Source of the DNA: Oscillospiraceae bacterium
Lineage (GTDB): Bacteria > Bacillota > Clostridia > Oscillospirales > Oscillospiraceae
Direction: 5' to 3'
Length of the DNA: 64,000 nucleotides
Assembly (NCBI GenBank): GCA_017458065.1
Contig: JAFTGD010000021.1
Coordinates: 1 to 64,000 of the forward strand
How positions within the stretch are numbered: the stretch's first letter is position 1; each line of letters starts with the position of its first letter. Positions 6,406 to 63,395 of the stretch are shown here, piece by piece. A program made the position numbers and the translations under genes. Below the pieces are notes generated by a model that was not told where the DNA came from, searched no databases, and was given only the letters and a program-made list of their open reading frames with translations.

Positions 6406-6921
6406 ATGGACGAGATCGGATACGTATTCAGCCCGCTGGATCTGAAGATCCTGATTCTGTTTATTCTGCGGCGGCTTCCCGGTGAGATCGAGGCCGAGCG
6501 GCTGCTTCAGATCTGCCAGGAGGACGGCGTCGTCAACTATTTTGACTTCACCATCTGCCTGGATGAGCTGAAGGAGAGCGGTCAGCTGGAACTGGAAGAG
6601 GGTTACTGTGCCATCACCTCCAGAGGACGGCAGACTGCCGAGACGCTGGAATCCAGCCTGCCCTACAGCGTGCGTCAGCACGCCGAAAAGGCGGCGGAAG
6701 CGGTGGCGGCGGACATCAGCCGCGGCAACAGCATTACCGGGGGACATCACGTCACCGACAGCGGCTGCATCGCCGAGCTGTCTTTGAATGACGGCATCAG
6801 TGAGATCCTGCAGCTGCGCATCCTCTGCGCGGACGAGGAACAGGCCAAATCCATAGAGAAAAAGTTCCGCCGCAACGCGGAGGAGACTTATCAGAAAATC
6901 ATCGCCGTACTCAGCGAGTGA
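6406..6921 (+). CDS. DUF4364 family protein
   Basis: A 171-residue protein of the DUF4364 family, common in Clostridia and of unknown function. The N-terminal ~85 residues look like a winged-helix fold (LDLKILILFILRRLPGEIEAERLLQ ... GYCAITSRGRQTAETLE), suggesting a transcription regulator. The C-terminal half is a mixed domain of the kind seen after such helices. I chose the ATG at 6406, preceded by CGGAAG; an upstream TTG at 6379 that overlaps the previous gene is possible. The next gene starts 14 bp after its stop. Confidence 0.75.
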   Translation: MDEIGYVFSPLDLKILILFILRRLPGEIEAERLLQICQEDGVVNYFDFTICLDELKESGQLELEEGYCAITSRGRQTAETLESSLPYSVRQHAEKAAEAVAADISRGNSITGGHHVTDSGCIAELSLNDGISEILQLRILCADEEQAKSIEKKFRRNAEETYQKIIAVLSE

Positions 6922-6935
6922 AAGAAGGAAACACT

Positions 6936-7949
6936 TTGAACACAATTATCCCGGATGGCTACAAGAGCATCCTCAGCATGTATGATACCCAGAAGGCCAT
7001 CAGTCTGATCCACAGGCTGTTTGAGGACAGACTCGGCGCGCTGCTGAACCTCTATCGGGTTTCAGCACCGCTCTTTGTCGAGGAGAATTCCGGCCTTAAC
7101 GACAACCTGAACGGGTATGAGCGCCCGGTCGGCTTTGATATCCTTCATTCCAACCACAAGGCGCAGGTGGTGCAGTCGCTTGCAAAGTGGAAGCGCCTGG
7201 CGCTCAAGCGCTACGGCTTCTTCCCAGGCAAGGGGCTTTATACGGATATGAACGCCATCCGCCGGGATGAGGACGAACTGGACAATCTCCACTCGGTTTA
7301 TGTCGACCAGTGGGACTGGGAGAAGATCATTCTCCCCGAGAACCGGAATCTGGACTATCTCAAGCTGACCGTCATGGATATCGTGCGGGCCATCTGCGAC
7401 ACGGAGGAAACCATCCAGTCGATCTATCCCCAGCTGCAGGTGCTGGGCAAGCTCAGGCGCGAAGTCTCCTTCGTGACCACCCAGGAGCTGGAGGACCGCT
7501 ATCCGGAGCTCACCCCCAAGGAGAGGGAGAACGTCTGGGTAAAGGAGCACCGCACCGCTTTTATCATGGGCATCGGCGGCACGCTCAAATCCGGAAAACG
7601 CCACGACGGCCGTGCACCGGACTATGACGACTGGAACCTTAACGGCGATATTTTCTTCTATGACGATGTTCTGGACTGCGCCATGGAGATCTCCTCCATG
7701 GGCATCCGGGTTGATCCCGAGTCTATGGACCGGCAGCTCCGGCTGGCCGGCTGCGAGGATCGGAGAGAACTGCCCTATCACAGAATGCTTCTGAACGGAG
7801 AGCTCCCCCTGACCATCGGTGGAGGCATCGGACAGTCCCGCGTCTCCATGCTGCTGCTGGGGAAAGCTCATATCGGTGAGGTTCAGGCCTCCATCTGGGA
7901 TGACGAGACCATGAAGCTCTGTGAAGAGCACGGCGTGGTTCTCCTCTGA
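6936..7949 (+). CDS. asnA: Aspartate-ammonia ligase (asparagine synthetase A)
   Basis: Makes asparagine from aspartate, ammonia and ATP. The 337-residue length is close to the family norm (about 330). Class II aminoacyl-tRNA-synthetase-like features are visible: YKSILSMYDTQKAISLIHR, the APLFVEENSGLNDNLNGYERPV substrate region, AFIMGIGGTLKSGKRHDGRAPDYDDW, and LTIGGGIGQSRVSMLLL (motif 3). I take the TTG at 6936 as the start because AGAAGG lies 7 bp upstream; an in-frame GTG at 6918 has no such site. AsnA uses free ammonia rather than glutamine, as the unusual PurF in this window may also do. Confidence 0.95.
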   Translation: MNTIIPDGYKSILSMYDTQKAISLIHRLFEDRLGALLNLYRVSAPLFVEENSGLNDNLNGYERPVGFDILHSNHKAQVVQSLAKWKRLALKRYGFFPGKGLYTDMNAIRRDEDELDNLHSVYVDQWDWEKIILPENRNLDYLKLTVMDIVRAICDTEETIQSIYPQLQVLGKLRREVSFVTTQELEDRYPELTPKERENVWVKEHRTAFIMGIGGTLKSGKRHDGRAPDYDDWNLNGDIFFYDDVLDCAMEISSMGIRVDPESMDRQLRLAGCEDRRELPYHRMLLNGELPLTIGGGIGQSRVSMLLLGKAHIGEVQASIWDDETMKLCEEHGVVLL

Positions 7950-48634: not shown

Positions 48635-51600
48635 TCAGGCGAAGTACTTTACCGCGGATTCAAACATCCTCAGGTCGTAGTTGCCGGGGACGTTCCGGTA
48701 GAGCCCGGCGCCGATGCGCTCGGCATGGCCCATCTTGCCGAAAACTCTGCCGTCGGGGGAGGTGATGCCCTCAATCGCGAAGAGGGAGTTGTTGGGGTTA
48801 AAGTGTACATCCGCAGTGGCGTTGCCCTCCAGATCCACATACTGGGTCGCGATCTGGCCGTTTGCCGCGAGGCTGCGGATCAATTCCTCGCTTGCAAGGA
48901 AGCGGCCTTCGCCGTGCGAAATCGGGACGTGATAGACCTCACCGACCTCGGTCAGCGCCAGCCAGGGGGACTTGTTGGAGGCGATCCGGGTACGGACAAT
49001 GCGGCTCTGATGCCGGCCGATGGTATTGAAGGTCAGGGTCGGGCAGTTCTCATCCGTATCGATGATCTTTCCATAAGGGACCAGACCCAGCTTGATGAGC
49101 GCCTGGAAACCGTTGCAGATCCCGCAGATCAGACCGTCGCGCTGTTCCAGAAGCTCGGTGACCCCCTCCTTGATCTCCGCATTGCGGAAGAAAGCGGTAA
49201 TGAACTTTCCGGAGCCGTCCGGCTCATCGCCGCCGGAGAAGCCGCCCGGGATGAAGATTATCTGGCTTTCTTTCAGCCGCGCGGCAAACTGATCCACACT
49301 GCGGGTAATGCCGTCAGAGGAGAGGTTGTTGATCACAAAGATCTCCGGTTCGGCGCCGGCGTCGCGGACGGCGCGGGCGCTGTCGACTTCGCAGTTGGTA
49401 CCGGGGAAGGCGGGGATCAGAACACGGGGCTTAGCCGTTTTGACCGTGGGGGCGACGCGCGTTTCCGAACGGAAGGAGAAGTTCTCCATCCCGGCGGAGG
49501 ACTGTTCAATATTGCAGGAATAAACCGACTCCAGCTTGTCCTCATAGAGCCGCAGAAGCTCGGCGGCATCGACGCTCTCTTCTCCGAGGCGGAACACACC
49601 GTCGTCTGTGACTGTGCCGATCAGCTCGGCGCCTTCTGCGTCTTCTGTGACTTCGAGCAGGAAGGAGCCGTAGTCATAGCCAAAGAGCCGCTGGACGGAA
49701 AGCCCATCCGCAAAGCGGAAGCCGAAGCCATTGCCGAAGGCCATTTTCATCACAGCCTCCGCGATACCGCCCATACCGGGCGTATAGCAGGCGACTGCCC
49801 TGCCGCTGCGCAGGAACTCTGTGACCCGGTTAAAGAGCGCGATCAGAGATGCGGCAGCAGGGAGCCCGTCAGGACCATAGTCCGGCGCAAGACGGACAAG
49901 CCTATGTCCGGCCTGCTTGAACTCAGGAGAAATGACTTCGTCCGTTTTCCCGGTGGTCACCGCGAAGGACACCAGTGTAGGCGGCACATGCAGGTCCTCA
50001 AAGGAACCGCTCATCGAGTCCTTGCCGCCAATGGCGCCGATCCCGAGGCCCATCTGCGCCTCGAAAGCGCCGAGCAGGGCGGAGAGCGGTTTGCCCCAGC
50101 GGGCGCTGTCTTTGCCGAGCCGCTCGAAGTACTCCTGGAAGCTCAGATACACATCGGAGAAGGATGCGCCGGCAGCCACCAGCTTGCAGACCGACTCCAC
50201 CACAGCCAGGTATGCCCCGTGATAAGGGCTCTTTTCGGTAATGAAGGGGTTGTAGCCCCAGGACATAAAGGAGCAGTCGTCAGTGTGCTTCTCTTCCATG
50301 GAGATTTTCTGCACCATGGCCTGGATGGGCGTCAGCTGGTTCTGACCGCCGAAGGGCATCAGAACCGTCCCAGCGCCAATGGTGGAATCAAAGCGCTCGC
50401 TCAGACCGCGTCTGGAGCAGCAGTTGAGGTCTGCGGCCATCTCCCGGAGCAGGTTACCGAAGCTGCCGCTGACTTTCTTTTCCCAGAACTGCGGCGCTGC
50501 AGCGACGGCGTCAATGTGCTTTTCGGCTCCGTTGGTGTCCAGGAAGGCACGGCTCAGATTCACGATCTGCTTTCCGTTCCACTCCATCACCAGACGGGGC
50601 TCCGCCTGGACGGAGGCGACAGGGACCGCTTCGAGGTTTTCGCCTGCGGCAAGACGCAGGAAGGAGTCCACATCAGAAGCTTCCACGACAACGGCCATGC
50701 GCTCCTGACTCTCACTGATGGCAAGTTCCGTGCCGTCCAGACCTTCGTATTTTCTGGGCACGGCGTTGAGATTGATGCGCAGGCCTTCCGCAAGCTCGCC
50801 GATGGCGACGGAGACGCCGCCCGCGCCGAAGTCGTTGCAGCGCTTGATCATTCGTGAGGCCTCGGCGTTGCGGAAAAGACGCTGGAGCTTGCGTTCCTCA
50901 GGGGCGTTGCCCTTCTGAACCTCGGCACCGCAGGTCTCCACGGACTGGGCGTTATGTGCCTTGCTGGAGCCTGTGGCGCCGCCGATGCCGTCGCGTCCGG
51001 TTCTGCCGCCGAGAAGGATGACGACGTCACCGGGAGCGGGGCGTTCCCGGCGTACGTTCTCCGCGGGTGCGGCCGCGATGACCGCGCCGATCTCCATGCG
51101 CTTGGCGGCATAGCCGGGATGGTAGAGTTCGTCCACAATACCTGTGGCAAGGCCGATCTGGTTACCGTAGGAGGAGTAGCCGGCGGCCGCGGTGGTGACC
51201 AGCTTGCGCTGGGGCAGCTTGCCGGGGATGGTCTCGGAGACGGGCGTCAGAGGATCCGCGGCGCCGGTCACGCGCATGGCACCGTAGACATAGGAACGCC
51301 CGGAGAGCGGGTCGCGGATCGCACCGCCGATGCAGGTGGCCGCGCCGCCGAAGGGCTCGATCTCTGTGGGATGGTTGTGGGTCTCGTTTTTGAAGAGAAG
51401 GAGCCAGGGCTCGGTTTCGCCGTCGGCTTCCACTTCGATCTTAACCGTGCAGGCGTTGATCTCTTCCGACTCGTCGAGCTTCGGGAGTTTGCCGGCCTTC
51501 TTGAGCGCCTTGACCGCGACAGTCGCGAGATCCATCAGGCAGATGGGCTTCGTGCGGTTCAGCGCCTTGCGGGTATCCAGATAGTCCTGCCAGGCCTTTT

Positions 51601-52324
51601 CCAGCAGTGCGTCCTCAAAGCGGACCTGATCGATGATGGTGTTGAAGGTCGTGTGTCGGCAGTGATCGGACCAGTAGGTATCGAGAACACGGATCTCGGT
51701 GATGGTCGGGTCGCGTTCCTCGCTGCGGAAGTACTCCTGACAGAAAGCGATGTCGTCGGCATCCATGGCGAGACCGAAGTTTCGGACAAAGTCCTCCAGC
51801 TCGGTGCGGCTGAGGCCGCGGAAGCCATTCAGAACAGCGACTTCGGTGGGAATCTCATACTGGACGCGGAGAGTGTCAGGCTTCTCGAGGGCGGCTTCCC
51901 GTGCCTCGACGGGGTTGACGACGTATTTCTTGAGCTCGGCGAGCTCGTGATCGCTCAAAGCACCGTACAGGGCATAGACCTTCGCAGAACGCACGAGCGG
52001 ACGCTCGCCCTGGGAAAGAATCTGGATGCACTGCGCGGCGGAATCGGCGCGCTGGTCGAACTGGCCGGGCAGATACTCCACTGCGAACACATGGGCTTCG
52101 CCGAAGTCCGGTTCCTCGCAGGCGATGTCCAGCTGCGGCTCAGAGAAGACGGTCTTTACGGCGTAGCGGAACAGATCTTCGGTGATTTCCTCCGCGTCAT
52201 AGCGGTTGAAGAGCCGGACCTGCTCGAGGCTTGTGATCCCGAGAAGATTGCGGGCTTCATTGAGCAGAGTCTGTGCCTCGTGGTCCAGACCGGGCTTCTT
52301 TTCAACAAAAATACGGTATACCAT
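48635..52324 (-). CDS. purL: Phosphoribosylformylglycinamidine synthase, single-chain type
   Basis: Converts FGAR to FGAM with ATP and glutamine. The 1,229-residue long form joins the PurS-like, PurL and PurQ functions in one chain. The synthetase core is seen in DTYWSDHCRHTTFNT, FKNETHNHPTEIEPFGGAATCIGG and GGRTGRDGIGGATGSSK. The C-terminal class I glutaminase has its nucleophile in GICNGFQAL and the His in ISHGEGRF, so unlike PurF its glutaminase looks intact. I chose the ATG at 52324 after GGGAGGTC, one base after the purD stop. It is the last gene of the operon. Confidence 0.97.
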   Translation of the reverse strand: MVYRIFVEKKPGLDHEAQTLLNEARNLLGITSLEQVRLFNRYDAEEITEDLFRYAVKTVFSEPQLDIACEEPDFGEAHVFAVEYLPGQFDQRADSAAQCIQILSQGERPLVRSAKVYALYGALSDHELAELKKYVVNPVEAREAALEKPDTLRVQYEIPTEVAVLNGFRGLSRTELEDFVRNFGLAMDADDIAFCQEYFRSEERDPTITEIRVLDTYWSDHCRHTTFNTIIDQVRFEDALLEKAWQDYLDTRKALNRTKPICLMDLATVAVKALKKAGKLPKLDESEEINACTVKIEVEADGETEPWLLLFKNETHNHPTEIEPFGGAATCIGGAIRDPLSGRSYVYGAMRVTGAADPLTPVSETIPGKLPQRKLVTTAAAGYSSYGNQIGLATGIVDELYHPGYAAKRMEIGAVIAAAPAENVRRERPAPGDVVILLGGRTGRDGIGGATGSSKAHNAQSVETCGAEVQKGNAPEERKLQRLFRNAEASRMIKRCNDFGAGGVSVAIGELAEGLRINLNAVPRKYEGLDGTELAISESQERMAVVVEASDVDSFLRLAAGENLEAVPVASVQAEPRLVMEWNGKQIVNLSRAFLDTNGAEKHIDAVAAAPQFWEKKVSGSFGNLLREMAADLNCCSRRGLSERFDSTIGAGTVLMPFGGQNQLTPIQAMVQKISMEEKHTDDCSFMSWGYNPFITEKSPYHGAYLAVVESVCKLVAAGASFSDVYLSFQEYFERLGKDSARWGKPLSALLGAFEAQMGLGIGAIGGKDSMSGSFEDLHVPPTLVSFAVTTGKTDEVISPEFKQAGHRLVRLAPDYGPDGLPAAASLIALFNRVTEFLRSGRAVACYTPGMGGIAEAVMKMAFGNGFGFRFADGLSVQRLFGYDYGSFLLEVTEDAEGAELIGTVTDDGVFRLGEESVDAAELLRLYEDKLESVYSCNIEQSSAGMENFSFRSETRVAPTVKTAKPRVLIPAFPGTNCEVDSARAVRDAGAEPEIFVINNLSSDGITRSVDQFAARLKESQIIFIPGGFSGGDEPDGSGKFITAFFRNAEIKEGVTELLEQRDGLICGICNGFQALIKLGLVPYGKIIDTDENCPTLTFNTIGRHQSRIVRTRIASNKSPWLALTEVGEVYHVPISHGEGRFLASEELIRSLAANGQIATQYVDLEGNATADVHFNPNNSLFAIEGITSPDGRVFGKMGHAERIGAGLYRNVPGNYDLRMFESAVKYFA

Positions 52325-52325
52325 C

Positions 52326-53597
52326 TCAGACCTCCCTGAGCGCCCGGAGCGCCCGTTGACCGATGTCCGTTCGGCAATAGGCGTTATCAAAACGCACCTG
52401 GCCGGCCAGCGCATAGGCGTCGCGGATGGCGGATTCCAACGTGTCCGATACAGCGGTGCAGCCTGCCACGCGGCCGCCGTTTGTGACCAGGATGCCGTCC
52501 TTCAGCGCGGCGCCGGCGACAAAGACCTGCTCCCGGATTTCCTCCGGAATCTCCATCGGATAGCCCTTCTCATAGTGCTCGGGATAGCCCGCGGAGGCGA
52601 GGATCACGCAGCATGCGTGCTGGTTGGAGAACTTTACATCCGCTTCGCTGAGGCGGCCTTCCGTCACAGCGCGCATGATGGTGAAGAGGTCGCTCTCCAG
52701 CAGAGGCAGCACCACCTGGGTCTCGGGATCGCCGAAGCGGCAGTTGTACTCGATGACCTTCGGTCCGTCTTCTGTGATCATGAGACCGAAATAGAGACAG
52801 CCTTTGAAGGTGCGGCCCTCGGCGTTCATCGCCCTGACCGTCGGGAGGAAGATCTCCTCCATGCAGCGGGCGGCGACCTCCGGGGTGTAGTAGGGGTTCG
52901 GCGCGACGGTGCCCATGCCTCCGGTGTTGAGCCCGGTGTCATGGTCGCCGGCGCGTTTGTGGTCCATGCTGGAGATCATCGGGACGATCGTCTTCCCGTC
53001 GGTGAAGGAGAGCACGGAGACCTCCGGCCCTTCCAGAAACTCCTCGATGACGATCTGATCACCGCTGTGGCCAAACTTTTTCTCCTGCATCATCTCGCGG
53101 ACGGCGGAGAAAGCCTTGTCTCTGGTCTGCGCGATCAGGACGCCCTTGCCGAGGGCAAGCCCGTCTGCCTTGATCACAGTGGGGATGGGAGCGGTCTCCA
53201 GATAGCGGAGCGCCTCGTCCATGTCGGTGAAGACCTCATATCTCGCTGTGGGGATGCCGTACTTCTTCATCAGGTTCTTGGAGAAGACCTTGCTGCCTTC
53301 AATGATGGCGGCCTCGCTCCGCGGGCCGAAGCAGGGGATCCCCGCATCCTCCAGCGCGTCGACACATCCCAGGACAAGAGGATCGTCCGGGGTCACCACG
53401 GCGTAGTCGATGTTGTTTGCGGCGGCAAAGGTGACGATCGAGGCGATATCCTTGGCGCCGATGGGAACGCACTCGGCGTCCCGGGCAATGCCGCCGTTGC
53501 CGGGCAGGGCGTAGATCTGGGTGATTTCAGGATTCTCTTTCAGCTTGCGGATGACGGCGTGTTCGCGGCCGCCTCCGCCGACTACCATTACTTTCAT
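52326..53597 (-). CDS. purD: Phosphoribosylamine-glycine ligase (GAR synthetase)
   Basis: ATP-grasp ligase joining glycine to phosphoribosylamine; 423 residues. The N-terminal loop VMVVGGGGREHA, ATP-grasp motif IEEFLEGPEVSVL, and CRFGDPETQVVLPLL are family signatures. GGAGTAG precedes the start. The gap to purH (110 bp) is the largest inside the operon. Confidence 0.97.
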   Translation of the reverse strand: MKVMVVGGGGREHAVIRKLKENPEITQIYALPGNGGIARDAECVPIGAKDIASIVTFAAANNIDYAVVTPDDPLVLGCVDALEDAGIPCFGPRSEAAIIEGSKVFSKNLMKKYGIPTARYEVFTDMDEALRYLETAPIPTVIKADGLALGKGVLIAQTRDKAFSAVREMMQEKKFGHSGDQIVIEEFLEGPEVSVLSFTDGKTIVPMISSMDHKRAGDHDTGLNTGGMGTVAPNPYYTPEVAARCMEEIFLPTVRAMNAEGRTFKGCLYFGLMITEDGPKVIEYNCRFGDPETQVVLPLLESDLFTIMRAVTEGRLSEADVKFSNQHACCVILASAGYPEHYEKGYPMEIPEEIREQVFVAGAALKDGILVTNGGRVAGCTAVSDTLESAIRDAYALAGQVRFDNAYCRTDIGQRALRALREV

Positions 53598-53710: not shown

Positions 53711-54889
53711 TCAGTGATGGAACAGGCGCATGCCGGTGAAGGCCATGACCATGTTGTACTTGTTGGCGGTGTCAATGACGTGGTCGTCACGGATGGAACC
53801 GCCCGGCTCCGCGATATACTGAACGCCGGATTTGTGAGCGCGCTCGACATTATCGCCGAAGGGGAAGAAGGCGTCGGAACCGCAGGTCACGCCGCTCTGC
53901 GTGGAGATCCAGGCCTTCTTCTCTTCCTGAGTCAGGACCTCGGGCTTCACCTTGAAGCGGGTCTGCCACACGCCCTCGGCGAGAACGTCTTCATATTCGT
54001 CGGAGAGATAGACGTCGATGGCGTTGTCCCGGTCGGGACGGCGGATTCCGTCCACAAACTGCAGGCCAAGCACCTTCGGGTGCTGGCGGAGCAGCCAGTT
54101 GTCCGCCTTCTGCCCCGCGAGGCGGGTGCAGTGAATGCGGCTCTGCTGACCGGCGCCGACGCCGATGGCCTGACCGTCCTTGACGTAGCAGACGGAGTTG
54201 GACTGGGTATACTTCAGAGTGATCAGCGCGACGATCATATCGCGGACTGCGGCTTCGGAGAGTGCTTTATTCTCAGTTACGATGTTTTGGAGCAGGGACG
54301 CATCGATGCGGAAGTTGTTATGCCCCTGCTCAAAGGTGACGCCGAAGACATCCTTGCACTCCTGGAGTGCGGGGACATAGTCCGGGTCGATTTGCACGAC
54401 ATTGTAGTTGCCCTTTTTCTTCGTCTTCAGGATGGCGAGCGCTTCTTCCGTGTAAGCGGGGGCGATGATGCCGTCGGAGACCTCATCTTTGAGATAGAGC
54501 GCCGTGGCTGCGTCGCAGGGATCGCTCAGTGCGGCCCAGTCGCCGTAGGAGCAGAGCCGGTCCGCCCCTCTAGCGCGGATATAGGCACAGGAGATGGGGG
54601 AGAGCTCGGCCTCGGGATCGACAAAGTAGATCCGGCGGTCCGTCTCGCTCAGCGGCAGGCCCACGGCTGCACCGGCGGGGGAGACGTGCTTGAAGCTTGC
54701 CGCGGAGGGAAGTCCGGTGGCTTCCTTCAGCTCTTTCACCAGCTGCCAGGAATTCAGCGCGTCGAGGAAGTTAATGTATCCGGGACGCCCGTTCAGCACA
54801 GCGACGGGCAGCTCGGAGCCGTCCTTCATATAGATGCTGGCAGGCTTCTGATTGGGATTGCAGCCGTATTTGAGTTCAAACTGTTTCAT
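53711..54889 (-). CDS. purH: Stand-alone AICAR transformylase (PurH transformylase domain only)
   Basis: Formylates AICAR to FAICAR using 10-formyl-THF. At 392 residues it corresponds only to the C-terminal half of bifunctional PurH: it opens at the transformylase domain (LKYGCNPNQKPASI), has the catalytic Lys-His in SFKHVSPAGAA, and contains GVGAGQQSRIHC and SDAFFPFGDNVE. The N-terminal MGS-fold cyclohydrolase is absent. The missing step is supplied by the purO-like gene immediately upstream in the operon. Confidence 0.95.
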   Translation of the reverse strand: MKQFELKYGCNPNQKPASIYMKDGSELPVAVLNGRPGYINFLDALNSWQLVKELKEATGLPSAASFKHVSPAGAAVGLPLSETDRRIYFVDPEAELSPISCAYIRARGADRLCSYGDWAALSDPCDAATALYLKDEVSDGIIAPAYTEEALAILKTKKKGNYNVVQIDPDYVPALQECKDVFGVTFEQGHNNFRIDASLLQNIVTENKALSEAAVRDMIVALITLKYTQSNSVCYVKDGQAIGVGAGQQSRIHCTRLAGQKADNWLLRQHPKVLGLQFVDGIRRPDRDNAIDVYLSDEYEDVLAEGVWQTRFKVKPEVLTQEEKKAWISTQSGVTCGSDAFFPFGDNVERAHKSGVQYIAEPGGSIRDDHVIDTANKYNMVMAFTGMRLFHH

Positions 54890-54892
54890 GAT

Positions 54893-55525
54893 TCAGTCCC
54901 CCAGATGTTTGTTGAAGAGTTTGACTTCGCCCCTGACGTTGGTGTAGAGCGAAACCTTGTTGTCCTCGTTCAGCGCGGCCCAGACTTCCTCGGGAGAAGG
55001 CATGTCGATCTCCAGCGGCTCGCCCTTGAAGCTGGGCAGCGGGGAACCGGGGCCTTCATAGGTGCTGAGGAAGTAGCCTTTTCCTTCGTCGCAGCCTTCA
55101 TAGCAGAAGAACTCGCGAAGGCAGCGGCCGTCCACGCATTTGAGAATCGAGAGCTCAAAGCTGCCGTCCTGATGCAGCACGGCGGAGATGCGGGGAGTGT
55201 TGTTGGGGGCGTCCGGCTCAAATTCCCTTGTCATCAGGGCTGCGCGGAAGTTGCCCATGTCGCGGATGGTGTCGGTCTGGTCGCCGTTGGTGACGATGAG
55301 GTCGGTACCGCTCTGCCGAACCGGGTGATAGATGATCAGGCTGGGGTCGGAGACCTTCGCCGGGTCAAAAGCCTCGGTGCGGATGCCGTCATCGGTCAGG
55401 GAAAAGATCCGGTTGCGGCTGTTCTCGCTGCGGCCCATGATGAAATAGTATACGGTGTCCTTGCCCACGGCGATGCCGCGCCCGGGATAGGGATTGTTCT
55501 TCAGAAACGCCAGAAAATCCGTCAT
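54893..55525 (-). CDS. purO: PurO-type IMP cyclohydrolase
   Basis: Closes the FAICAR ring to IMP, the last step of de novo purine synthesis. A 210-residue protein resembling the archaeal PurO fold (NPYPGRGIAVGKDTVYYF and an SRNRIF segment), not the MGS fold found in bacterial PurH. Placement next to a transformylase-only purH supports the assignment. I chose the ATG at 55525 with GAAAGGAG upstream; it overlaps the purN stop (ATGA). A longer in-frame reading to 55576 lies inside purN and lacks support. Confidence 0.88.
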   Translation of the reverse strand: MTDFLAFLKNNPYPGRGIAVGKDTVYYFIMGRSENSRNRIFSLTDDGIRTEAFDPAKVSDPSLIIYHPVRQSGTDLIVTNGDQTDTIRDMGNFRAALMTREFEPDAPNNTPRISAVLHQDGSFELSILKCVDGRCLREFFCYEGCDEGKGYFLSTYEGPGSPLPSFKGEPLEIDMPSPEEVWAALNEDNKVSLYTNVRGEVKLFNKHLGD

Positions 55526-56106
55526 TTGAGTACTCCTTTCGAAACCAGCTCTGCCGCCTGCGGCAGAAGAATCCATTCCGCTTGCTCCATGACACGCTTC
55601 TGCAGCAGCTCGGGGGTGTCGCCCGGCAGAACATCAACGGCCTTCTGGAGAATGATCTCACCGCCGTCGGGGATCTCATTGACAAAGTGTACGGTGGCGC
55701 CGGTGACCTTGACGCCGCGGGCCAGCGCTTCCTCGTGGACGCGCAGCCCGTAATAGCCTTTTCCGCAGAAAGCAGGGATCAGTGAAGGGTGGACGTTCAG
55801 AATGCGGTTCGGCCACGCAGAGGTGAAATCCTCACTCAGGATCCGCATGAACCCGGCGAGGATGATCAGGTCGATCCCGCGTTCGGCGAGAAGCTGACGC
55901 AGAGCGTCCTCAAAGCCCTTTCCGGTCAGGACCGCGGTCTCAACACCGGCCTTCTCGGCGCGCTGAAGCGCATAGGCCTTTGCATTGTTGGAGACCACCA
56001 GCACGATTTCGCCGCTCGTGAGCACACCGCTCTGTTCCGCGTCCAGAAGCGCCTGCAGATTTGTCCCGCCGCCGGATACGAGGACGGCAATCTTCGCTTT
56101 CCTCAT
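55522..56106 (-). CDS. purN: Phosphoribosylglycinamide formyltransferase
   Basis: Formylates GAR with 10-formyl-THF; 194 residues. AVLVSGGGTNLQALLD at the N-terminus, the catalytic ILNVHPSLIPAF, and GATVHFVNEIPDGGEIILQ with the catalytic Asp are conserved. It overlaps the PurO start by four bases and follows purM after 9 bp. Confidence 0.96.
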   Translation of the reverse strand: MRKAKIAVLVSGGGTNLQALLDAEQSGVLTSGEIVLVVSNNAKAYALQRAEKAGVETAVLTGKGFEDALRQLLAERGIDLIILAGFMRILSEDFTSAWPNRILNVHPSLIPAFCGKGYYGLRVHEEALARGVKVTGATVHFVNEIPDGGEIILQKAVDVLPGDTPELLQKRVMEQAEWILLPQAAELVSKGVLK

Positions 56107-56115
56107 ACCTTGCCC

Positions 56116-57141
56116 TCAGCAGATGACGATGGGCTCGTCGCCGGGCGCGATCTCGCCGATGACGACTGCGTCCGGAAGAACCGAACAGATACGGTCAGCG
56201 CTCTCCCGCGCGACCACAAGGCTCATGCCGATTCCCATGTTGAAGGTGTTGAACATGTCGCGCTCGGGGATTGCGCCACGCTCCTGAATCAGGCGGAAAA
56301 CCGCCGGGACAGGGATCGCGGCCTTCTCGATCCGAGCCTGACAGCCCGCGGGGAGACAGCGGGGGATGTTCTCATAGAAGCCGCCGCCCGTAATGTGGCT
56401 GATCCCGTGGATGCCGCCGATCTCCAGCGCCGCCAGAACCGGCTTCACATAGATCTTTGTCGGGGTCAGCAGTGCCTCGCCGAGGCTCATGCCCAGCTCA
56501 TCTACGCTTGCGCCGAGGTCTGCGTGCTCCACGTCAAAGACCTTGCGCACCAGCGAGTAGCCGTTGGAGTGGATGCCGCTGGACGGAAGGCCGAGAACCA
56601 CATCGCCTTCGCAGACGGAATTCCGGTCGAGGATCTTCTCCTTGTCCACGATGCCGACGGCGAAGCCGGCCAGGTCGTAGTCGTCCGGCTGCATGGTCCC
56701 CGGGTGCTCCGCGGTCTCGCCGCCGATCAGGGCGCAGCCGGCCTGCACGCAGCCCTCCGCAACGCCGGAGACCAGTGTCGCGACCTTCTCGGGCTCGTTC
56801 CTGCCGATGGCGATATAGTCCAGAAAGAACAGGGGTTTCGCGCCGCAGCAGACGATGTCGTTGACGCACATGGCCACACAGTCGATCCCGACGGTGTCAT
56901 GTTTCCCCAGCAGCTGTGCAATGCGCTGCTTGGTGCCGACGCCGTCCGTCCCGGAGACAAGGACCGGTTCCTTCATACCGCCAAGCTGCGGTGCGAACAG
57001 ACCGCCGAAGCCGCCGATGTCCGACACCACGCCGGGGATGAAGGTGCGCTCCACATGCTGCTTCATCAGGCGCACGCCCTCGTAGCCCGCCTCAATGTTG
57101 ACACCGGCTGCGGCATAGGAGGCAGAATGGGAATTGTTCAT
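56116..57141 (-). CDS. purM: Phosphoribosylformylglycinamidine cyclo-ligase (AIR synthetase)
   Basis: Closes the imidazole ring of FGAM to AIR; 341 residues. SYAAAGVNIEAGYEGV, LVSGTDGVGTK, CVNDIVCCGAKPLFFLDY and GGETAEHPG are signature blocks. It starts 3 bp after the purF stop. Confidence 0.97.
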   Translation of the reverse strand: MNNSHSASYAAAGVNIEAGYEGVRLMKQHVERTFIPGVVSDIGGFGGLFAPQLGGMKEPVLVSGTDGVGTKQRIAQLLGKHDTVGIDCVAMCVNDIVCCGAKPLFFLDYIAIGRNEPEKVATLVSGVAEGCVQAGCALIGGETAEHPGTMQPDDYDLAGFAVGIVDKEKILDRNSVCEGDVVLGLPSSGIHSNGYSLVRKVFDVEHADLGASVDELGMSLGEALLTPTKIYVKPVLAALEIGGIHGISHITGGGFYENIPRCLPAGCQARIEKAAIPVPAVFRLIQERGAIPERDMFNTFNMGIGMSLVVARESADRICSVLPDAVVIGEIAPGDEPIVIC

Positions 57142-57144
57142 GGC

Positions 57145-58572
57145 TTATTCCTTTCCGTTCCAGCAATAGGTGCAGATCTTGTCGGGGTCGATGCCGATGG
57201 CTTCCAGCAGCCCGTCCAGCGACTGGTATTCCAGCGAGTCGAAACCGAGCTTCTCGCAGATCGCCTTGCGCAGGCACTTGCCGCGTTCGGAGTGAGAGTC
57301 GGCATATTCGTCCAGATGCTTCTGGCCTTCGCCGTCCTCCAGTTCCTCAATCGTCCTGCGGGCGAGCAGGTCCATATCGGAGTTGCCTCGTGAGAAGTTC
57401 AGATACTTGCAGGCGTACATGATGGGCGGGCAGGCGGAGCGCATATGCACTTCGGCCGCGCCGGACTCATAGAGAAAGTCGACCGTGCCCTGCAGCTGGG
57501 TACCGCGCACAATAGAGTCGTCCACGAAAAGCAGCTTCTTGCCCTCAATGAGCTCGGGGACGGGGATCTGCTTCATCTTGGCCACCTGGTCGCGCACGTC
57601 CTGGTTGGCCGGCATGAAGGAGCGCGGCCAGGTCGGGGTGTACTTGACAAAGGGTCTGGCAAAGGGCTTGCCGCTGCGGTTTGCATAGCCGATGGCGTGG
57701 GGGATGCCGGAGTCGGGGACGCCGGCCACATAGTCCACCTTCGGCAGCTGCCCGTGGACGATCTCGTCGCGGGCCATGATCTCGCCGTTGCGGTAGCGCA
57801 TGACCTCAACGTTGACGCCCTCGTAGTTGGAGTTCGGATAGCCGTAATAGCTCCAGAGAAACGCGCAGATCTTCATTTTTTCCGCGGCCGGCGCAAGGGA
57901 TTCGAACCCGTCGGCGGTGATGCGGACAATCTCAGCCGGCCCCAGCTCATAGGCCTTGGTATAACCCAGCTTCTGGTAGGCGAAGGACTCAAAGCTGACG
58001 CAGTATCCGTCCTCATCCTTCCCGACCAGGACCGGAAGCCGACCGAACTGGTCGCGGGCCGCGATGATCTCGCCCTGCGCCGTCATGAGCAGAACCGTCA
58101 TCGAGCCGTCGATCACCCGCTGCATATGCTGGATGCCGGCGACCAGGCTCTCACGCTCGTTGATGAGCGCGGCGACCAGTTCCGTACAGTTGACCTTTCC
58201 GGAGCTCATGGCCATAAACTGATGGCCGTGGTCAGAGAAATAGGTGTCTACCAGTTCCTCGGCGTTGTTGATCTGCCCGACGGTCGTGATGGCATAGAGC
58301 CCCAGATGCGAGCGCACAAGCAGCGGCTGCGGGTCAGAGTCGCTGATGCAGCCGATGCCGCAGCAGCCCCCGTGGAAGTCCGCGAGGTCTTTTTCAAACT
58401 TCGTCCGGAAGGGCGTGTTGGTGATGGAGTGGATCTGACGTTGGCAGCCGTGCTCTCTGCTCCAGATCGCCATACCGGCGTTGCGGGTGCCCAGATGACT
58501 GTGATAATCGGTGCCGAAGAAGACGTCCAGAACAACGTCCCTTTTTGACACCGCACCAAAGAAGCCGCCCAT
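57145..58572 (-). CDS. purF: Amidophosphoribosyltransferase-like protein lacking the glutaminase nucleophile
   Basis: The first committed purine enzyme by homology; 475 residues. The phosphoribosyltransferase half is intact (LLFVDDSIVRGTQLQG PRPP loop near residues 343-356). Cysteines able to bind a [4Fe-4S] cluster, as in Bacillus PurF, are kept (ICAFLWSYYGY, RSACPPIMYACKYL, CTYC at 467-470). But canonical PurF begins Met-Cys, with Cys as the Ntn nucleophile, while this protein begins [10 protein letters not shown]. The start is fixed by a one-base overlap with purC (TGATG). I infer an ammonia-using enzyme or an unusual nitrogen source. Confidence 0.88.
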   Translation of the reverse strand: MGGFFGAVSKRDVVLDVFFGTDYHSHLGTRNAGMAIWSREHGCQRQIHSITNTPFRTKFEKDLADFHGGCCGIGCISDSDPQPLLVRSHLGLYAITTVGQINNAEELVDTYFSDHGHQFMAMSSGKVNCTELVAALINERESLVAGIQHMQRVIDGSMTVLLMTAQGEIIAARDQFGRLPVLVGKDEDGYCVSFESFAYQKLGYTKAYELGPAEIVRITADGFESLAPAAEKMKICAFLWSYYGYPNSNYEGVNVEVMRYRNGEIMARDEIVHGQLPKVDYVAGVPDSGIPHAIGYANRSGKPFARPFVKYTPTWPRSFMPANQDVRDQVAKMKQIPVPELIEGKKLLFVDDSIVRGTQLQGTVDFLYESGAAEVHMRSACPPIMYACKYLNFSRGNSDMDLLARRTIEELEDGEGQKHLDEYADSHSERGKCLRKAICEKLGFDSLEYQSLDGLLEAIGIDPDKICTYCWNGKE

Positions 58573-59258
58573 CAGGCAAAGAAGAGCTCAGAGAGCGTCA
58601 TCGGATCGATGTACTTGCCGTCTTTGTAGACGCGCATGTTGCCGGAGGCGATCTCGTCGATGAGCATGACCTCGCCATTGGCGTCATAGCCGTACTCAAA
58701 CTTGATGTCATAGAGGACCAGGCCGCGGGCCTTCATCTCGTCGGCGACGATCTGGGTGATCTTCTGGGTCATGTCTTTGATGGTGTCGTACTGCTCGGCG
58801 GTCATGACGCCGAGGACAATGAGGCCGTCCTTGGTCACGAGGGGATCGCCCTTCTCATCGTTTTTAAAGGTCATCTCAACATAAGCGGGGAGATCGGCGC
58901 CCTCTTCGACATAGTCGCTGTAGCGGCGGAAGAAGGAACCGACGGCCTTGTGGCGGCAGATAACTTCAAGTCCCTTGCCGAAGACCTTGGCAGGGAGAAC
59001 CTCCATGGTGGTTTCCTTGAGGTCGGCGCTGACATAGTGGGTGCGAATGCCGGCGGCATTGATCTTTTCAAAGAAATAGATGGACATGCGCAGATTGACA
59101 TCGCCGACACCGTCGATGGTGAGACCGACAGAATTCTCACCGGGATCAAAGACGCCGTCCTTGCCGGTGCAGTCGTCCTTGAACTTCAGAAGATAGTTGC
59201 CGTTGTCGAGGGCATAGACATTCTTGGTTTTGCCGGTGTAAACGAGTTTCTTTTCCAT
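58572..59258 (-). CDS. purC: SAICAR synthetase
   Basis: Joins aspartate to CAIR; 228 residues. [12 protein letters not shown] at the N-terminus, [14 protein letters not shown], and LYDIKFEYG followed by [12 protein letters not shown] are family signatures. AAAGGAGC lies upstream. Its stop shares a base with the purF ATG. Confidence 0.96.
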
Positions 59259-59313: not shown

Positions 59314-59802
59314 TCAGAGCCGTGCGGCGATGCCGGCGTCCTTCTCCAGAACCGCGGCGGTGTCCCGCTCGCGCTTCAGGCGCAGGCGTTCGGCGACCTC
59401 GGGATCCGAGACCGAGAGGATCTCGGCTGCGAGCAGAGCGGCGTTCGCGCCGTTGTTCACACCGACGGCGGCGACGGGGATGCCCGAGGGCATCTGTACG
59501 GTGCTGAGCAGCGCGTCCATCCCGTCAAAGAAGGGACCCTTGCAGGGAATGCCGATGACCGGGAGCGTGGTGTTGGCTGCAATGGCCCCCGCGAGGTGAG
59601 CCGCCATACCGGCCGCTGCGATCAGGACGCCGAAGCCGTTCTCTCTCGCGTCCAGGGAAAACTGCCTGGCCTGCTCCGGCGTGCGGTGGGCGGAGAAGAC
59701 GTGTACTTCAAAGGGAATGTCCAGTTCCTTCAGGATGCCGGTGGCTTTCTGGATGACGGGCAGGTCGCTGTCGCTGCCCATGACAATGCCGACTTTTTTC
59801 AA
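59314..59802 (-). CDS. purE: N5-CAIR mutase (class I PurE)
   Basis: Interconverts N5-CAIR and CAIR; 162 residues. [21 protein letters not shown] and [11 protein letters not shown] mark class I PurE. No PurK is in the window, so the N5-CAIR source must be elsewhere, or the enzyme may work directly with CO2-derived carboxylation. Spacing to pyrI is 21 bp. Confidence 0.96.
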
Positions 59803-62246: not shown

Positions 62247-63395
62247 TCAGCCCCGGTTGAAATTGCCGTCATTCGGCCGGCCGTGACCTCTGCCGCCGAA
62301 GCCGCCTCCAAAGCCTCCGTCAAAATCTCCCTGGCCGGGCTGCATTCCGTCAAAACCGCTGCCAAAACCGCCCATTTGGCCGCCTGGGCCCATGCCGCCG
62401 AAGCCGCCGCCCATCATCTGGTTCGGAATGCTGTCGACCTGCTGGCCGTTTATGATCACGGTGCCTCCGGTGAAGCTGACGCTGCCGTCATAGTCGAAGC
62501 AGGAGCTGCCGTTTACGCGGATGGTGCCGCCGGTAATGATCAGGTTGCCGTTGGAGTCGACGCCATCGGTGTCTCCGGCTCCCATCACGATGGTGATGTC
62601 GCCGCCGTTGATCTCCACGACCGGTGTCCCGATATCGGATAGAGCGGTCGCGTTGATGCCGTCGTCACCGGCCTGGATGCTGACGCTTCCGCCGTTCAGG
62701 ATCACCTGTGTGGCTTCCATGCCCTCAGTACCTGCGATGAGATCGAGCGTCCCGTCCTCTACGGTGAGTTCGTCGTTTGCCGAGAGCGCCTTGCGTCCGG
62801 CCGAGATCGAGATGCTGCCGCTCTTGACGGTCAGATCGTCCTTGCTGACGATGCCGTGCCCGTAAGGCGCGCTTACGGTCAGGCTGCCGCTGCCCTTGAC
62901 GGTGACATCTTCTTTGGAGAAAATCACGCCGTCTACGTTGTTGCTGTCGGTCTGGACAAAACTGCCCGAGGTCGTGAGCGTGTTGCTGCTGCCGTCTTTC
63001 AGCTTGATCACCAGCTTGTCCGCCGAGACCACATAGATCGCGGCACTGTCGGAGTTGGTGATGCTGACGCCGTCCAGGACGAGACGGACCTTGTCCTCCT
63101 TGGCCGCTTCGATCCGGATCTGCCCGTCGGAGAGGGCGCCGCTCACGGTGTAGCTGCCGGCCTCGGTGATGGTGACGGTGCTGCCGTCAACAACGACGCT
63201 GTCACAGCTGCTGCTGATCCCGGCGTCGCTGAGGGTCAGCGTGTATTCCGGCAGGCTGTCCTCATCGTCCGAGGCGCCTTCCGCGCTGGCGCCGGCGTCT
63301 ATGTTCAGGATCAGTACGGAGCACAGCAGCATCAGGGTAAACAGGAAGGGAAGCGTGCGCAGAAGCGCAGTTCCCGGGGAAGATTTATTTTTCAT
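62247..63395 (-). CDS. Cthe_2159-like carbohydrate-binding beta-helix protein
   Basis: A 382-residue exported protein. A signal-type helix (about 13-34, LPFLFTLMLLCSVLILNI) precedes a parallel beta-helix of the DUF4353/Cthe_2159 type, built of short repeating strands (GSGSLTVSAPYGHGIVSKDDLTVKSG; NGGSVSIQAGDDGINA; NGGDITIVMGAGDTDGVDSNGNL). The last ~60 residues are Gly/Met/Phe-rich low complexity. A Clostridium thermocellum relative binds acidic polysaccharide; I do not know the ligand here. It starts 18 bp after the DUF4956 gene and is probably cotranscribed. Confidence 0.85.
   Translation of the reverse strand: MKNKSSPGTALLRTLPFLFTLMLLCSVLILNIDAGASAEGASDDEDSLPEYTLTLSDAGISSSCDSVVVDGSTVTITEAGSYTVSGALSDGQIRIEAAKEDKVRLVLDGVSITNSDSAAIYVVSADKLVIKLKDGSSNTLTTSGSFVQTDSNNVDGVIFSKEDVTVKGSGSLTVSAPYGHGIVSKDDLTVKSGSISISAGRKALSANDELTVEDGTLDLIAGTEGMEATQVILNGGSVSIQAGDDGINATALSDIGTPVVEINGGDITIVMGAGDTDGVDSNGNLIITGGTIRVNGSSCFDYDGSVSFTGGTVIINGQQVDSIPNQMMGGGFGGMGPGGQMGGFGSGFDGMQPGQGDFDGGFGGGFGGRGHGRPNDGNFNRG

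Follow-up and report, generated by a model that had tools for sequence, protein, structure and literature searches.

The purF position in the purine operon of an Oscillospiraceae bacterium is occupied by a PurF homologue without a glutaminase site (GF hereafter; PurF with the N-terminal Cys is called canonical), and the residues that it has lost and kept, together with its distribution, make it probable that the protein is an ammonia-dependent PRPP aminase (5-phosphoribosylamine synthase). A broader reading is favored with somewhat less confidence: that PurF turned, in one clade of gut- and rumen-dwelling anaerobes, into a strictly ammonia-dependent PRPP aminase whose dead glutaminase half was rebuilt for a different role, that this protein repeatedly became the sole PurF, and that canonical PurF and ammonium transport are absent together, the gene pair marking a commitment to ammonium-rich habitats. 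The N-terminal Cys of PurF is the Ntn nucleophile of its glutaminase, and the first committed purine step is described as glutamine-dependent. The analyzed stretch of DNA (the window) comprises 64,000 nucleotides, positions 1 to 64,000 of contig JAFTGD010000021.1, and coordinates refer to it unless another genome or locus is named.

GF is encoded on the minus strand at 57145..58572 (475 aa, ATG start) and matches the PurF model below its cut-off. Its N-terminus, MGGFFG (58555..58572, minus), places Gly2 where PurF has the nucleophile Cys1. The sequence-only reading had noticed this start in place of Met-Cys-Gly and had considered it fixed by a one-base overlap with purC, and both points were borne out: the minus-strand frame begins as described, its ATG overlaps the purC stop codon by one base at 58572 (TGATG), and none of the five codons between the upstream in-frame stop and the ATG is ATG, GTG, or TTG. 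The Cys is therefore not supplied by an earlier start, and a wrongly chosen start or a hidden propeptide is ruled out. A sequencing error as the source of Gly2 is excluded as well, since the protein is one of a conserved clade: when its 126 distinct relatives are aligned with E. coli PurF, 119 have Gly at the Cys1 position, 7 have Ser, and none has Cys, which settles the earlier question of whether relatives share the Gly. Among the Pfam models, GATase_7 scores 33.5 bits and Pribosyltran 18.7 bits, the latter under its cut-off, while the NCBIfam purF model TIGR01134 gives 177.9 bits where its cut-off asks for 350, leaving GF short of the PurF model. The closest solved structure is 1ao0 (151.7 bits), which, together with 1gph, we take to be a Bacillus-type PurF.

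The relatives were collected as 177 open reading frames scoring above 450 bits (from loci that overlap in part), of which 171 passed a motif filter and gave the 126 distinct proteins; these were aligned with E. coli PurF and 45 canonical or related sequences, 3 of which resemble other amidotransferases. Some of the 126 had been retrieved with the patterns G[TV]DYHSHL and F[IV]KYTPTW, and the filter dropped 6 of the 177 frames, so the invariance of the DYHSHL and KYTPTW segments is partly due to selection of the sequences. The dropped frames (6, of which 5 are distinct) likewise start with MGGFFG. We take Arg26, Arg73, Asn101, Gly102, and Asp127 to be glutamine-site residues of PurF. Arg26 is replaced by Leu in 126/126 GF proteins; in the window this Leu (E. 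coli position 26) lies within DYHSHLGT (residues 22-29; 58486..58509, minus), which replaces the PurF QHRG(Q) segment. Arg73 and Tyr74 fall within a deletion in all 126 proteins, and the site of this deletion (E. coli numbering) is adjoined by CISD (residues 75-78; 58339..58350, minus). Asn101 has become Val, Ile, or Thr in 126/126 proteins, and TVGQ (residues 97-100; 58273..58284, minus) stands in place of HNGN, with Asn101 gone and Gly102 retained. Asp127 is also replaced in the 126-protein alignment. Gly102, kept in 124/126, is the sole survivor among the listed residues. An excerpt of PMC7953260 names Arg73, Thr76, and Gly102 of PurF as contacts of a glutamine analogue. Judging from these replacements, glutaminase chemistry is not expected of GF. 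The idea that GF works as a normal PurF despite its unusual site, with an N-terminal Gly or Ser still allowing slow glutamine hydrolysis, could draw on the seven relatives with Ser at the Cys position; it is extremely improbable, as Gly occupies this position in 119/126 and Arg26, Arg73, Asn101, and Asp127 are lost too.

The PRPP site, by comparison with E. coli PurF, retains D366, D367, S368, V370-T373, K326, R332, F334, and Y258 in 126/126 GF proteins. The PRPP-binding motif of the window's protein, VDDSIVRGT (residues 350-358; 57499..57525, minus), is intact, and its core (D351, D352, S353, V355-T358) is invariant in a 43-row alignment of 35 GF and 8 canonical PurFs. The segment KYTPTWPRSF (residues 310-319; 57616..57645, minus) represents an altered PRPP flexible loop, longer by one residue, that keeps Lys326, Arg332, and Phe334. 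Invariant in the same 43 rows are C236, C388, C467, and C470, the four presumed Fe-S cysteines of Bacillus-type PurF, which span 57163..57867 (minus); from these conserved cysteines, an Fe-S cluster is presumed for GF. The earlier observation that the PRPP loop and the likely Fe-S cysteines remain thus extends to the relatives. The 47 of the 126 GF proteins that came from a whole-genome protein search, under the same filter, concur at the sites outside the pattern segments.

Mean pairwise identity among the 126 GF proteins is 0.61 in the N-terminal half and 0.69 in the C-terminal half; the corresponding values for 41 canonical sequences are 0.52 and 0.55. The median dN/dS of GF is 0.15 in the N-terminal half and 0.08 in the C-terminal half, as calculated from 59 of 65 close pairs (the others being saturated), with dS high and in some pairs near 1. 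Selection thus still holds the dead glutaminase half, though less tightly than the C-terminal half, and the conservation of the former means that mere loss of function is insufficient as an explanation. It may now act as an ammonia funnel, in assembly, or as a regulatory site. In an alternative proposal, a rebuilt N-terminal pocket lets GF aminate PRPP with a different donor or attach a different small amine. The conservation of DYHSHLG (also a search pattern) and IHxIxNxPFR among members down to 56% identity would suit such a pocket, as would the presence of peptidase T after GF in two Bacteroidales records and one from Peptoclostridium. However, GF adjoins purC and purM in many loci, and the next pathway step requires phosphoribosylamine, which makes this proposal very improbable.

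In the tree, GF is a single clade (SH-aLRT 100) separated from canonical PurF by a long branch, for which the program issued a long-branch warning; the clade ranges across Clostridia, Coriobacteriia, and Bacteroidales. Among 65 labelled GF sequences, at least 14 changes from "alone" to "with canonical PurF" or back were counted, 10 of them forced by starred branches, using a quick method that leaves out the direction (loss or gain); several "alone" labels come from genomes less than 90% complete, so this count may be too high. The tree carries 36 "both" labels, 8 of which derive from a canonical gene in the same locus and the others from genome searches.

In the window, GF is part of a minus-strand pur operon. 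It is preceded by purE (59314..59802, TIGR01162) and purC (58572..59258; TIGR00081 at 121.7 bits, under the cut-off of 189.9) and followed by purM (56116..57141, TIGR00878), purN (55522..56106, TIGR00639), a weak match to a PurO-like IMP cyclohydrolase (54893..55576; NF003167 at 43.6 bits, cut-off 150), AICAR formyltransferase, i.e., purH without the cyclohydrolase (53711..54889; NF005492 at 704 bits), purD, whose product consumes phosphoribosylamine (52326..53597; TIGR00877 at 512.9 bits), and purL with a fused PurQ-type glutaminase (48635..52414; TIGR01857 at 1833 bits, PurQ models at residues 995-1256). At 53711-55576, the split pair of AICAR formyltransferase and weakly matching PurO-like cyclohydrolase seems to take the place of the bifunctional PurH in making IMP. 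Elsewhere in the window, the list of open reading frames contains a protein at 62247-63395 whose N-terminus is signal-like and whose tail is rich in Gly and Met (GGFGGMGPGGQMGG).

In the proposed function, the phosphoribosyltransferase half of GF would bind PRPP, and the enzyme would make phosphoribosylamine for PurD, as PurF does. With neither the nucleophile nor the glutamine pocket left in the N-terminal half, free NH3 rather than glutamine would supply the nitrogen. Where ammonium is plentiful, GF would suffice, and canonical PurF and Amt would become dispensable. The sequence itself shows the lost and kept residues, the operon place, and GF as the only PurF found in the genome, from which we infer the catalysis, the use of free NH3, and the sufficiency at plentiful ammonium. 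According to an excerpt of PMC3261824, which reports Mei and Zalkin 1989, E. coli PurF with its Cys replaced still uses ammonia.

The sequence-only reading had allowed two sources of this nitrogen, free ammonia or ammonia from a separate glutaminase. The former is favored by the operon place of GF, the kept purD, the repeated standing as sole PurF, and the rarity of Amt; the latter is unsupported so far. A glutaminase feeding GF with ammonia in trans, in the manner of PurL/PurQ or HisF/HisH, could dock on the conserved N-terminal half (median dN/dS 0.15), or the glutaminase might be lent by canonical PurF, whose gene adjoins GF in 11 of 80 named loci. Yet the operon in the window has no room for an extra gene between purE and purL, none of the 56 named operon loci without canonical purF contains a separate PurQ-like open reading frame (a count that covers the operon loci only, and within which such a partner is ruled out), and 27 of the 39 loci with both purE and purD have no unassigned frame of at least 150 aa in between. 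Moreover, the low frequency of Amt in GF-only genomes, described below, is a prediction of the use of free ammonia. Supply in trans is, all told, unlikely.

The association of GF with purine genes reaches beyond the window: 67 of the 80 named loci have one or more purine genes no farther than 3.5 kb from GF, most often in the order purC-GF-purM, and in the other 13 GF is away from the pur operon. In the sample drawn across the phylum, 13 of 16 GF loci have no purE, purC, or purM beside GF in the DNA covered, and the Peptoclostridium and Bacteroidales records also place GF outside the pur operon. For GF outside the operon, no recurring neighbor emerged, as no cluster occurs in more than 6 of the 31 loci compared. 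Peptidase T (pepT) directly follows GF only in Peptoclostridium acidaminophilum (on a plasmid), Bacteroides finegoldii, and Parabacteroides distasonis (records L215:8001-10800, L216:8001-10787, and L217:8001-10684); it is the same neighbor in two phyla, followed in the Bacteroidales by gcvT.

Retention of purD, the consumer of the presumed product, was followed in 60 of the 69 GF-only genomes and 20 of the 21 genomes with neither PurF form in the window's order, Oscillospirales. The gene is kept in 58/60 GF-only vs 6/20 "neither" genomes (Fisher p 2.6e-9, with kinship ignored); one of the 58, in G450, is a partial gene at a contig end, and purD was not found in GF-only G055 and G470. GF alone therefore accompanies a kept purine pathway. 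By a hand count, purD lies on the same contig and less than 7 kb from GF in 40 of the 50 GF-only genomes for which both places are listed; 8 further GF-only genomes have no listed GF place. The six genomes in which purD occurs and neither PurF form was found (G049, G056, G404, G441, G460, and G590) may reflect assembly gaps or another first enzyme.

A second, canonical purF would have refuted the idea of the sequence-only reading. Neither protein nor purF-model searches found one in the assembled part of the window's genome, which spans 3.6 Mb in 83 contigs at 96.4% completeness, although the missing part may hold a copy. The GF protein as query gave a single match at E up to 10. The purF model matched GF at 162.8 bits and four further proteins more weakly, namely a GlmS-like protein (MCGIVG), two AsnB-like proteins (MCGICG and MCCVMG), and L006 (14.2 bits). 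These Cys-bearing GlmS and AsnB-type proteins rule out that the organism has given up glutamine use altogether. Among 60 near relatives (counted by hand, with the window's genome included and some genomes far from complete), GF occurs in 31, of which 5 also have a canonical match; 17 have only the canonical form and 12 neither. In the 25 GF-only near relatives other than the window's genome, the purF model had no match over its cut-off.

Across 297 genomes of the order, all at least 90% complete and classified manually from match scores and counts, 69 are GF-only (labels that refer to draft genomes), 97 have both forms, 110 only the canonical one, and 21 neither. Canonical PurF is consequently missing in 69/166 genomes with GF vs 21/131 without GF. 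In a renewed search of 66 GF-only genomes (64 of the order and 2 Coriobacteriia), none had a canonical PurF over the cut-off, and one, G549, had a canonical fragment at a contig end. GF without canonical PurF was also seen in Evtepia gabavorous KLE1738, Adlercreutzia equolifaciens DFI.6.87, and three other genomes, and both forms in 6 of 11 genomes reached via the named loci (e.g., Flavonifractor sp. An112 and Frisingicoccus caecimuris). Farther afield, GF was found in 20 of 299 genomes across the phylum, 19 of which have a match read by hand as canonical PurF among the matches listed, and in 24 of 80 Coriobacteriia genomes, alone in 3. GF is therefore usually an added enzyme, and the sole PurF mainly in the window's order. 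One genome, G216, carries two GF copies (C67:12485-13882 and C49:150356-151753) besides a match read as canonical PurF. Among 14 control genomes, 13 had a purF-model match at E up to 1e-60; the exception, Bacteroides ihuae, seems to be without a standard TIGR01134 PurF.

The frequent company of canonical PurF (19 of the 20 GF genomes of the phylum sample, among the matches listed) would be expected if GF were a regulatory or inactive paralogue and phosphoribosylamine were made otherwise, e.g., by a side activity of another phosphoribosyltransferase. This is quite improbable in view of the PRPP-site residues kept in 126/126 GF proteins, the purifying selection on GF, the occurrence of purD in 58/60 GF-only genomes, and the place of GF at the purF position of the operon.

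The reading of GF as a user of free ammonia bears on ammonium uptake, since Amt serves growth at low ammonium. In a first round, Amt (PF00909) was found in 4/40 GF-only vs 26/40 canonical-only genomes; a second gave 1/29 GF-only, 4/11 canonical-only (the 11 chosen to match families and genera), and 26/40 with both forms. The single GF-only genome with Amt in the second round is G549, which carries the canonical fragment at a contig end. Without it, the totals are 4/68 GF-only vs 56/91 canonical-bearing genomes (p 4.5e-14), the latter made up of 26/40 with both forms and 30/51 with the canonical one only; the sample takes in all 69 GF-only genomes and hand-picked sets of 51 of the 110 canonical-only and 40 of the 97 "both" genomes, and two matches are weak or partial (a broken fragment in G457, "both", and 162.7 bits in G478, GF-only). 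Canonical-bearing genomes thus retain ammonium scavenging more often than GF-only ones. The difference persists when stratified by family (CMH p 1.4e-9), and among 14 mixed genera Amt is found only on the canonical side in 9 (one of these, g316, with Amt in 2/3 on that side), on neither side in 5, and in the reverse arrangement in 0. Genome size is ruled out as the cause, as the effect persists in a size regression and at 1.5-2.3 Mb, where Amt occurs in 1/49 GF-only vs 36/63 canonical-bearing genomes. The window's genome itself goes against the trend and is among the four GF-only exceptions that keep Amt. Its Amt gene lies in an open frame of 587 aa with room for a C-terminal extension (G000:C20:114082-117900, L004), just upstream of an AsnB-type amidotransferase with an intact MCG N-terminus. 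The link between Amt and GF is a correlation, and habitat may drive both, with the absence of Amt marking the habitat rather than the enzyme.

The sequence-only reading had also seen a fit with ammonia-dependent AsnA. The asnA gene is real (6918..7949, plus; TIGR00669 at 330.1 bits), but it is weak as support: AsnA occurs in 32/40 GF-only vs 22/40 canonical-only genomes (p 0.03) and is therefore common in the latter as well. The use of free ammonia is the best reading of GF because the glutamine site is lost while the PRPP site and purifying selection are kept, and because GF stands as the sole PurF in pur operons of genomes mostly without Amt. This suggests that GF-only gut and rumen bacteria build purines from free ammonia. 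If this is true, a widespread bacterial form of the first purine enzyme works without a glutaminase and is the sole one in many genomes with a purine operon. Its usual label, "amidophosphoribosyltransferase", would then name the wrong nitrogen donor in many gut bacteria, and PurF inhibitors that mimic glutamine should leave the first purine step untouched in bacteria with GF only. The Amt link would then amount to a testable ecological rule, by which genomes hold on to the glutamine-dependent enzyme in settings where ammonium may become scarce. A bacterial clade of PurF without the Cys, its standing as the sole PurF, and the link with Amt appear to be new here, none of them having turned up in searches of open-licence PMC papers.

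Among known systems, GF resembles Bacillus-type PurF (EC 2.4.2.14) in its two-domain layout, PRPP motif, four presumed Fe-S cysteines, and place in the pur operon. It differs in having no Cys1, no propeptide, and no glutamine-pocket residue but Gly102, as well as in its altered flexible loop with TPTW and an insertion near the C-terminus. Mammalian carbamoyl-phosphate synthetase I, AsnA, and ammonia-dependent NadE, in which a glutaminase is lost or absent, take their nitrogen from free ammonia; GF would share this logic with them, although they belong to unrelated families or other pathways, and AsnA, to our knowledge, never had a glutaminase. PurF' paralogues without the Cys were described near purine genes in Crenarchaeota (Biol Direct 2011;6:63, PMC3261824, in excerpt), and the excerpt proposes for them, as a hypothesis still to be tested, the role of an ammonia-dependent aminotransferase. 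Like them, GF is a PurF homologue without the N-terminal Cys that is clustered with purine genes; according to the same excerpt, however, each crenarchaeal genome studied also has a Cys-bearing PurF, whereas some genomes yielded no PurF besides GF.
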